DNA from: Methanothrix sp.
GTDB taxonomy: Archaea; Halobacteriota; Methanosarcinia; Methanotrichales; Methanotrichaceae
Direction: 5' to 3'
Assembly (NCBI RefSeq): GCF_030055635.1
Contig: NZ_JASFYM010000018.1
Location: forward strand, 1 to 44,584
Length of the DNA: 44,584 nucleotides
Positions 36,624-44,584 of this stretch are shown in pieces. How positions within the stretch are numbered: the stretch's first letter is position 1; each line of letters begins with the position of its first letter. Both the position numbers and the translations under genes were made by a program. Below the pieces are notes generated by a model. The model had not been told where the DNA came from, did not search any database, and saw nothing but the letters and a program-made list of their open reading frames with translations.

Positions 36624-36934
36624 CTATTTTTTATATTGCTGATACTGGCTTATAGACTTTTTGGATGAAGTTTATCTATTATAATTATGTTATTTTGTTT
36701 CTGAGGTGCAGAGCTGAACAGCCGCTCTGGCTGTTTGATGCAAGGTGGTGTGGCAATCAGGCACTGACAGCGCGACCTGGAAGGCGATCATATGATAACC
36801 TGCCTGTAGCGACACTGGTCATGCTACACGCGCCTGAAAAATGAACATGTGCTTCCAGCAGCCTGCCTCAATGACATCCAAGCTGCTGAACACATAAGAG
36901 CGATTGCAGCTTTTGGTACTACAGCCCCTGCATC
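36624..36934. other. AT-rich spacer without a gene
   Basis: The first 80 nt are strongly AT-rich and likely hold the promoter of the minus-strand small CxxC gene. A 7-bp hairpin AACAGCC/GGCTGTT lies at 36717-36735. Nothing coding is evident in the rest. Confidence 0.4.
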
Positions 36935-41921: not shown

Positions 41922-42113
41922 AAGCCCTCAGTGGGCATGTGACGATATCTTTTTTTTGGAGCATTCCCTGAGGATCTCCTGAATGGATAGAAAAGCAGCA
42001 GGGCGCAAAACCCGGTCTTAATGCCTTGGAGAGTAGATCACAGCAGCTCGCCTGCGACACTCGAATCGCGCTGACCGGAATCTATATTTGATCTCCGCTG
42101 CATGGAGCGCAGC

Positions 42114-42791
42114 ATGAGAAAACTGACAGTGTTGCTCATGCTTGTCATTCTCCTTGATGCATCTGCGGCTCAGAACACACCCCAGGAGCTTGTTGATAAC
42201 GCAAAGGCGCTTTTTGCTGCGAGGGATTACAATCAGGCCCTGAACCTCACAGAGACTGCACTAAGAATGAACGGCGGCCTCGAGCAGGCTTGGCTTCTCC
42301 GGGGGAAGATACTGCTCACAAGAGGTATGCTGAGAGAGGCATACCAGAGCTTTGACAGGGCCACTCAGCTCGACGTCTCTGATGCAGAGGCATGGAACTT
42401 CAAGGGTATCGTGCTGGTAGCAATGAAGAGGTACAACGATTCGCTTCAGTGCTTTGACGCCGCAATCCAGGCAGATCCCATGAACTACGAGGCCTGGAGC
42501 AACAAGGGCAACACGCTTATCAGCATGGGAAGGCTCGATGATGCCATCTCAGCATTCGATAGATCTATAATCGTAAATCAGACCTACGCCGGCGCCTGGA
42601 TAGGCAAAGGTATTGCCCTCTACTACCAGGAGAGGTACCACGAGGCCCTGGCGATGTATGAGAGGGCTCTCCAGCTGGATCCTGGCAACCCAACCGCCCT
42701 GCGCAACAAGGGTCTTGCACTGAAAAAGCTCGGCATGAATAAAGAGGCTGAGGAGGCATTCAGAGCCGCGGAGCTGAACCAGAGGAGATGA
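42114..42791 (+). CDS. Secreted or anchored TPR-repeat protein
   Basis: 225 residues from ATG 42114, chosen because GGAG at 42104-42107 precedes it and the signal peptide MRKLTVLLMLVILLDASAA starts there; an ATG at 42102 is in frame. About six tetratricopeptide repeats fill the rest, with typical spacing (AWLLRGKILLTRGMLREAYQ, AWNFKGIVLVAMKRYNDSLQ, AWSNKGNTLISMGRLDDAIS, AWIGKGIALYYQERYHEALA, ALRNKGLALKKLGMNKEAEE). TPRs scaffold protein complexes. There is no second membrane helix, so it acts outside the cytoplasm or on the outer face. The partner is unknown. Confidence 0.85.
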   Translation: MRKLTVLLMLVILLDASAAQNTPQELVDNAKALFAARDYNQALNLTETALRMNGGLEQAWLLRGKILLTRGMLREAYQSFDRATQLDVSDAEAWNFKGIVLVAMKRYNDSLQCFDAAIQADPMNYEAWSNKGNTLISMGRLDDAISAFDRSIIVNQTYAGAWIGKGIALYYQERYHEALAMYERALQLDPGNPTALRNKGLALKKLGMNKEAEEAFRAAELNQRR

Positions 42792-43105
42792 TATGACGTG
42801 AACATCAGCGACTGATATTGTTGTATCTGCAACGAGTCGCCAACTGCTCCGGCCTGAAGACCGGAGTTTGCGCCCTGTTTATTCTCTATCACCAGCTCGA
42901 TCTCTCAGCGCCTACGACTGCTCGAGATTCCCATGCTCGCCGAGAGCCGGCCTCGCGTATGAGGCGCGTTCCTGATCAAGTGTTAGGTCATGGCGCATCT
43001 TCATCCTTTCGGCACGCCTATAACGTCGCAGGAATGGTCTCGTGAGATCACTGCCGCTGGCCGCATTCTCATCATCGGGAGGAGTCTGTGAATTTTTAGA
43101 TGACT
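42792..43105. other. Spacer holding a mobile-element end, no gene
   Basis: Apart from the IS605-type right end at 42838-42885, nothing recognisable. Base composition shifts to AT-rich at its right edge, where the acquired two-gene unit starts. Confidence 0.45.
42838..42885 (-). mobile_element. IS605-type right end (copy D)
   Basis: Minus strand: GATAGAGAATAAACAGGGCG, then CAAA and the hairpin CTCCGG/CCGGAG (42847-42852 with 42861-42866, loop TCTTCAGG), then CAGTTGGCGAC. It matches copy C at 26938-26985 over about 45 nt but lacks its AAGTCAC end. One frame reads QGANSGLQAG, the same peptide-like trace of a TnpB C-terminus. Confidence 0.6.
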
Positions 43106-44431
43106 TCACGTTTTAAGATTTAATATCAGCGATTTCATCTTATCGATGTTTTTATCGTCCATATCAAAGGTAATGTAGTCTAATAAAACCTCTTTATTTT
43201 TTTCAAGCTTGTAGATCCAAAAACCTTCTGGTGCTGCAACTACAAAACCGCCCATGCCAAGCAGTAATGCATAGGTTTTAGCTTGGGCCACGGCCCTGTT
43301 GAGCTCCTTTTCATTAGCGATTCTAATTTTATTTTCAATTATAGTAATGTCAGTGTTATCGTTATCTTTCACAAGATAGTCTATGTGGCATGTATGTGGT
43401 TGACTGGTCATGAAATCATACGAAACCTGTCTTTGATGTTTGAATCCCCAACGTTTCAGCAACGGCTCGATGATCTTATCTTCAAATTCTTTTTCATCCT
43501 CAAACTCGACGATATTATTAATTTGAGGTGCACATGAAGTTATCTCTGGCTTTAGATTAAATTTCTCTTTGATATCTTTATCAATTAGATCCAATAACCG
43601 GTTATACGCAAAATATGGTATCTGCGCGGTTGAAACCCCCTGAGACTGGACTCTCACAAAGCTCCACTGTTTTAGGATCGCATCATGCTTCATTTCTCCC
43701 ATCGTAATGTCTCTTATTGGGGTAATTTTCTTCAGTGGAACCCAAAAGCCCTCCCACCCTCCATATGGATCAAACCAGGGATCCTCTTGGACACGATATA
43801 TATCGGTAATCGCTTTGCGTGGTGCCTGTCTGTACATGAAGACAAGATCCCCTTCTTTCATTTCCTTTCGCCCAGACCAGACCGTATCTGGCTCTGCATC
43901 CAAGGCTTCAAAGTACGGCTCGCTGGTTGCCATGATCCAATATCGGTTGTAGTAATTCGTTGTTAGAAATGTCCTCCCCAGCCCATGGTACAGAAAATAG
44001 TGCACCCTTTGCTGAACTGTCTTTGGGTCCTCATCAGGCCAGTTCTTATCTGCGAAGATATGCAGCACTTCATTTAGTTTAATATAATTATCAAAGCTGT
44101 GTTTTCCCTTTCCAATCTTCGAGAACGGTAGGTTAAATTCGTCAACAATATCGGCAAAGAACTTCAGACCTGAAAAGATCTCGTCCTCCAACATGGATAC
44201 TCGATAGAAGAAATATTTCTCAGGAAATACATAATTTAGCACTAAAGAGATACGGGAAACATCATTTTCGAATACCTTTCTTAAGTATAATATCAGATCC
44301 CTTTCTTTGGTTTTTGCGGACTTCCTGACTAATTTTTGTATCGAACTAAAGAAATCACTTGGCAATTCTAAAGGCCGCATGTTGTTCAATGCAAAAAGCA
44401 ATTCTTCTATGCTATAACCCACATTCCGCAT
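43106..44431 (-). CDS. EVE-like domain fused to PD-(D/E)XK nuclease-like domain
   Basis: 441 residues from ATG 44431, which shares its A with the TAA of the upstream gene (TAATG) and follows GGAG; an ATG at 44461 is in frame. Residues 1-150 are helical and unrecognised. Residues about 163-284 look like an EVE/PUA-like fold: NRYWIMATSEPYF, MKEGDLVFMYRQAPRKAITD, then LKQWSFVRVQSQG. EVE domains bind modified bases. Residues about 312-413 resemble a PD-(D/E)XK nuclease: HIDYLV with D351, IIENKI with E366 and K368, then AVAQAKTYALLLG. The gene is clearly AT-richer than its neighbours. Best guess is a modification-dependent restriction protein; a housekeeping RNA role is less likely. Confidence 0.75.
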   Translation of the reverse strand: MRNVGYSIEELLFALNNMRPLELPSDFFSSIQKLVRKSAKTKERDLILYLRKVFENDVSRISLVLNYVFPEKYFFYRVSMLEDEIFSGLKFFADIVDEFNLPFSKIGKGKHSFDNYIKLNEVLHIFADKNWPDEDPKTVQQRVHYFLYHGLGRTFLTTNYYNRYWIMATSEPYFEALDAEPDTVWSGRKEMKEGDLVFMYRQAPRKAITDIYRVQEDPWFDPYGGWEGFWVPLKKITPIRDITMGEMKHDAILKQWSFVRVQSQGVSTAQIPYFAYNRLLDLIDKDIKEKFNLKPEITSCAPQINNIVEFEDEKEFEDKIIEPLLKRWGFKHQRQVSYDFMTSQPHTCHIDYLVKDNDNTDITIIENKIRIANEKELNRAVAQAKTYALLLGMGGFVVAAPEGFWIYKLEKNKEVLLDYITFDMDDKNIDKMKSLILNLKT

Positions 44432-44583
44432 TAACGCTCCAGTCCGTAGTATTTTTCGCATTCTGGTCCGAACAGTTTGATGATCTTTATGGTATTCTCG
44501 TTGAGGTTAGCGATTTTCTGGTGTTTCTCGCCGCAGAGCCATATGTTGACTTCAGTGACTCCGAGGAACATGAACGCGATCCA
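44431..44583 (-). CDS. Partial gene, C-terminus only (truncated by window edge)
   Basis: The last 50 codons of a gene entering from the right edge, ending at TAA 44433-44431. The peptide includes FMFLGVTEVNIWLCGEKHQK, then IANLNENTIKIIKLFGPE and CEKYYGLER. I do not recognise it. The TAATG overlap makes it the upstream partner of the EVE-nuclease gene in one operon, and it is similarly AT-rich. Whether it is a methyltransferase, ATPase or other partner cannot be told from 50 residues. Confidence 0.7.
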   Translation of the reverse strand, partial: WIAFMFLGVTEVNIWLCGEKHQKIANLNENTIKIIKLFGPECEKYYGLER

Positions 44584-44584
44584 T

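Follow-up and report, generated by a model that had tools for sequence, protein, structure and literature searches.

The 44,584-nucleotide contig NZ_JASFYM010000018.1 of Methanothrix sp. (contig C18, analysed here in its entirety as the window, and one of the 33 contigs of a 1.76 Mb assembly) carries at its right edge, on the minus strand, a gene that joins an EVE domain to a nuclease domain of the PD-(D/E)XK type. This gene is disrupted by an insertion sequence (IS) and has lost its native first 31 codons, which was overlooked in the original prediction made for this DNA. The best explanation overall, which we hold with reasonable though not high confidence, is a transferred gene for a single-polypeptide, modification-dependent (type IV-like) restriction enzyme of the EVE-PD-(D/E)XK class, truncated at its 5' end by the IS.

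An insertion sequence within the gene

The minus-strand open frame runs from an ATG at 44431 to a stop codon at 43106 and encodes 441 residues, or 451 if it is read from an ATG at 44461. The original prediction placed the gene at 43106-44431. The open frame is present, but the ATG at 44431 lies inside the IS, because the IS ends at 44418, and the native 5' end of the gene is found on a different contig, C31. The first residues of the 441-residue frame (MRNV and part of G5) are IS-derived sequence, and the 3' portion of the gene in the window (43106-44417, minus strand; native residues 30/31-467 plus the stop codon, with the order helical domain, EVE, HsdR_N) aligns over its full span with intact homologues at 53-54% identity.

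The frame upstream (44431-44583, minus strand) had been taken for the coupled, unknown partner in an operon. A TAATG overlap, in which the TAA of this frame overlaps the ATG at 44431-44429, is indeed present in the sequence, but the frame encodes the C-terminal end of a transposase of IS1634 type, and the overlap was made by the insertion. The 50 residues upstream of the gene match a transposase end at five places in G000 and also in relatives, and they are 98% identical to the C-terminus of a 534-residue transposase, of which a congener holds an intact copy with the Pfam domains DUF4277 and DDE_Tnp_1. The end region of the IS has nine matches within its own genome. When the copies are aligned, the sequence is common up to ...GGAATGTGGG and divergent beyond; the shared right end reads ...GCGTTAATGCGGAATGTGGG and falls at base 44418 of the window. 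The mobile-element end predicted next to the gene is real. TAATG thus forms part of the IS in all copies seen, and the gene does not natively start at the ATG at 44431. IS1634 elements are defined by a DUF4277 and DDE transposase, terminal inverted repeats and duplications of 5-6 bp. The interrupting element, of ~1.7 kb, shares these transposase domains, has imperfect terminal inverted repeats and made a 6-bp target duplication; it differs in nothing notable from its type, and its right end bears an outward ATG that overlaps the transposase stop. Its right-end stretch (44418-44584, minus strand) runs off the contig, and the window also begins in the left end of a copy of the same IS (1-37), which explains where the assembly broke. 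At the start of contig C3 (1-833; L026/L027) two IS fragments lie near each other in opposite orientation, which suggests a nested or rearranged insertion.

Reading the contig rightwards for the partner gene, as had been proposed, leads to the transposase tail, while the missing 5' end of the gene has to be sought on C31. IS left ends were located at several contig ends, and only on C31 is the left end preceded by TTATAG. This matches the TTATAG past the IS right end in the window (44412-44417, as read on the minus strand) at 6/6 positions, whereas comparisons of 5-mers and 7-mers fail. Other copies of the IS pair likewise, with ATGTC for C30/C26 and ATTTAT for C16/C25. If the flanks are joined with one TTATAG, the IS and one repeat being removed, the result is an open frame of 467 codons with the start MNRRHMLSLILEDVERNASK, the first 31 codons of which sit on C31, and the product is 53% identical over its full length to an unbroken homologue. 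The join of C31 to C18 is supported by three independent lines, namely the duplication, the fact that the part on C31 is homologous to the N-terminus of an intact homologue, and synteny.

The synteny also shows the empty site. The TPR gene of the window (42102-42791, plus strand) and comD, which lies on C31, are adjacent in 5/5 congeneric genomes with no insert between them, and in one of these comparisons (G177) the homology of the flanks halts at window position 42837 and sets in again within 2 bp, where comD starts. The whole stretch is therefore an insert of ~2.2 kb (without the IS) that is absent from relatives, and its window part occupies 42838-44417. The gene has a GC (guanine plus cytosine) content of 39.4%, against 54.7% for the window, and is the lowest-GC stretch of the contig; at third codon positions the coding part of the insert has 44%, against 65-73%. 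The AT-richness that had been noted is thus borne out, and the low GC together with the absence of the insert from all 5 congeners supports the recent transfer that had been suggested. It is worth noting that the genomes of the genus contain dozens of copies of interspersed repeats of ~100-130 bp, with 75-87% identity (for example at 36813-36903 in the window), and that two such stretches lie inside the insert beside comD (L034 289-400 and 618-754).

Since the gene is cut off from its promoter region, its start and its first 31 codons, and since the only ATGs left to start the truncated frame lie within the IS end or upstream of it, the gene is probably inactive or impaired in this genome. Translation might restart at the ATG that the IS carries, and the truncated protein might still function if read-through from the promoter of the transposase allowed its expression: the frame is open past the junction with no further lesion, and the IS end provides an ATG that is in frame and overlaps the stop codon of the transposase. 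We nevertheless consider a functional product unlikely, as the missing residues 1-31 are conserved and include the predicted first helix, while the insertion looks recent (the IS end is identical to other copies), which alone would account for the lack of decay.

Domains of the protein

The original prediction of an EVE/PUA-like domain at residues 163-284 agrees with a Pfam match to EVE (PF01878) at residues 163-272 in the numbering of the 441-residue frame (43616-43945, minus strand), with an E-value of 9e-7 and 29.4 bits against a cut-off of 23. An intact homologue also scores above this cut-off (24.4 bits), and the homologue from Deinococcus QL22 falls under it with 14.3 bits. A profile search of the PDB gave a weak match (E 0.014) to 2gbs ('hypothetical protein Rpa0253'), which we take to be an EVE-type protein.

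The restriction-type nuclease core that had been proposed is found at 43193-43498 (minus strand). The candidate catalytic residues D351 (43379-43381), E366 (43334-43336) and K368 (43328-43330), which become D377, E392 and K394 in the joined frame of 467 residues, occur in the right order, are followed by QAK-x-Y, and are invariant across five aligned proteins, namely the archaeal proteins and two plasmid-borne proteins from Deinococcus that are ~21% identical to them. The full invariant series is E-D-ExK-QAKxY. The cut-off of Pfam HSDR_N is reached by no member of the family (best 17.3 against 25.1 bits). The window protein gives no HSDR_N hit, and both Deinococcus homologues have sub-threshold matches at the nuclease site, with E-values of 0.0045 and 0.022. 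A profile of the family reaches, at E 8.7e-7, a protein that clears the HSDR_N cut-offs, and tblastn finds an annotated HsdR_N protein at 3e-4. Profile-profile comparison with HSDR_N proteins by hhalign gives a probability of 98.7, a generous value with optimistic E-values, as the targets had been preselected by the earlier searches. A sequence search of the PDB returned nothing for the nuclease. Because of the invariant series, the sub-threshold Pfam matches, the reach of the profile and the profile-profile match, there is good, though not structural, support for a probable HsdR_N-type PD-(D/E)XK nuclease. It shares its catalytic pattern and the profile-profile match with the N-terminal nuclease of type I restriction enzymes (HsdR_N, PF04313 / PF13588), but it lacks their helicase motor and has an EVE partner instead.

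The N-terminal helical region (residues 1-150 of the 441-residue frame; 43982-44431, minus strand) had been described as unfamiliar, and it is a real domain conserved in 5 homologues. The IS contributes residues 1-4 and part of residue 5 of this frame, and the native first helix is on C31. An AlphaFold2 model built from four sequences is all-helical, with 7 helices, at low to moderate confidence (predicted local distance difference test, pLDDT, of 59). This model has no fold match in the PDB or BFVD, and the domain has no sequence relative in Pfam or the PDB. Within the domain, conservation is strongest in the motif S-L-x-L-x(4)-P-(E/D)-x-(Y/F)-x(2)-Y, which is weakly matched (E 0.001) at the end of a haloarchaeal-looking protein of 454 residues from another order of the phylum (G341), in which Pfam gives no domain.

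Homologues and their neighbourhoods

The full protein is rare. It was found in 1 of 393 genomes sampled from the phylum, which is the present one, and, among 50 genomes of the family, in one other (G326, 53% identity over 466 residues). Profile scans of genome contigs gave no relative with the window protein alone and two with a two-row alignment; profile scans of viral contigs and tblastn against phages gave none. A contig binned as Micrarchaeota bears another full-length copy, which has 95% identity to the one in G326. Since this contig also has genes for ParA and for a ParE/Gp49-like toxin and, downstream, a stretch in common with a Methanothrix contig, it could represent either a plasmid or an error in binning. 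The two intact archaeal copies differ at 13/10/44 first, second and third codon positions (nonsynonymous divergence, dN, 0.024; synonymous, dS, 0.172), a third-position bias that is expected under purifying selection. Both are preceded, at a distance of ~55 bp, by a MarR-like winged-helix gene (L041 707-1117 and L047 7429-7947); in L041 the intact Methanothrix homologue itself spans 1173-2534. Judged by eye, the two winged-helix genes resemble each other less closely than the two nuclease genes do (95%).

The two Deinococcus plasmid proteins align over most of their length, and both lie by restriction or BREX genes. In QL22 the homologue is found between pglZ and a GTPase gene, in a locus that also holds BrxL, PglX and a DarT1/NADAR pair. 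In D. proteolyticus a non-specific endonuclease gene precedes it and an MmeI-type IIG restriction gene follows. A third locus, in Deinococcus NW-56, has a shorter HsdR_N protein, a relative of the nuclease domain, adjoining pglZ and brxL with McrC-family and AAA ATPase genes alongside. On this plasmid (L089 1391-12327) the successive genes are an N-6 methylase, HNH, DarT, NADAR, the HsdR_N protein, pglZ, brxL, the McrC-family gene and the AAA ATPase. All three loci point to defence, in line with the role that had been proposed, though three loci are too few for statistics. No conserved partner gene stands beside the homologues, as the neighbours differ between loci, and PADLOC-DB has no match for the two Deinococcus homologues. 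The protein could be an accessory of BREX-like systems that works with the methylase/PglZ system rather than alone, given that both the QL22 homologue and the HsdR_N-only relative adjoin pglZ/brxL. This is improbable in our view, since the stretches read around the archaeal and D. proteolyticus homologues contain no BREX genes, and defence genes cluster anyway.

It can be added that fusions of EVE to a PD-(D/E)XK nuclease of the NucS/YhcG type occur in other methanogens of this family (L003 66-980, L036 1255-1941 and L038 1411-3192, with Pfam run on L003 only); in L038 the fusion is followed by apparent TPR repeats.

Function and meaning

Taken as a modification-dependent restriction enzyme, the protein would use its EVE domain to bind a base of incoming DNA that is modified and probably flipped. 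Cleavage nearby would fall to the HsdR_N-type domain at the C-terminus, with metal ions held by D377/E392/K394. The helical N-terminal domain would most likely serve in dimerisation, DNA grip or gating. Horizontal transfer brought the gene to the TPR-comD junction of the methanogen, where the IS1634-type element later split it behind codon 31, duplicating 6 bp of target and removing the native start. The fusion of an EVE reader to a PD-(D/E)XK nuclease, as originally predicted, is supported by the Pfam match to EVE, the invariant catalytic residues and the profile match to HsdR_N. Such fusion proteins are an established predicted class of modification-dependent (type IV) restriction enzymes (Bell, Wolf and Koonin 2020, PMC7641849), and the present protein likewise has EVE and PD-(D/E)XK nuclease domains in a single polypeptide. 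It adds a conserved helical domain and a nuclease of the HsdR_N type, although the set in PMC7641849 may or may not hold this exact layout. In the EVE-HNH enzyme VcaM4I, EVE has been shown to flip 5-methylcytosine and 5-hydroxymethylcytosine (5mC/5hmC) (PMC7897488). The order of an EVE reader and a C-terminal nuclease is the same there, but EVE-HNH endonucleases have an HNH nuclease and lack the helical N-terminal domain. By analogy the reading step is likely to be that of VcaM4I, with a different cutting domain.

Several observations weigh against this assignment. The nuclease domain of the window protein has no Pfam match above cut-off, and no model of PADLOC or NCBIfam matches the protein. 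Of the structure predictions that had been called for, the helical-domain model could be compared with known folds, but the full-length AlphaFold2 model (pLDDT 40) is unusable for judging the EVE and nuclease folds. The survey of neighbours gave defence genes at the Deinococcus loci, while the archaeal homologues have no clear ones and only the winged-helix gene upstream.

A different target is conceivable, with EVE reading modified RNA and the nuclease acting on RNA or causing dormancy or death of the infected cell. This appears very unlikely, as HsdR_N-type PD-(D/E)XK domains are in general DNA nucleases, and the proteins encoded next to the Deinococcus homologues have DNA as their target. 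The reading of the upstream gene and the EVE-nuclease gene as a translationally coupled, two-gene defence operon has a negligible chance of being correct despite the TAATG overlap, because the upstream frame is a transposase C-terminus with several copies in the genome and others in further family members, TAATG is the IS end in all copies seen, and both intact archaeal homologues have a winged-helix gene upstream instead. As an ancestral operon the coupled pair is refuted; chance read-through expression of the truncated frame is possible.

The case illustrates an annotation trap in short-read genomes, where an IS end at a contig edge can fake both a coupled operon and an N-terminus. The EVE-nuclease class is already known, and the conserved helical domain is its unexplained part here. 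A more speculative suggestion, which we regard as doubtful, is that the proteins of helical-EVE-HsdR_N layout, shared by methanogens and Deinococcus plasmids, make up a separate and as yet unnamed family of modification-dependent restriction enzymes. Its helical domain would be a new module for regulation or oligomerisation, and its members may act as a type IV complement inside BREX loci. With the modification-dependent restriction enzyme as the preferred explanation, an archaeal case and a BREX-linked case from Deinococcus would be added to the EVE-nuclease restriction enzymes, and the intact homologues could be assayed for the modified base that they read.
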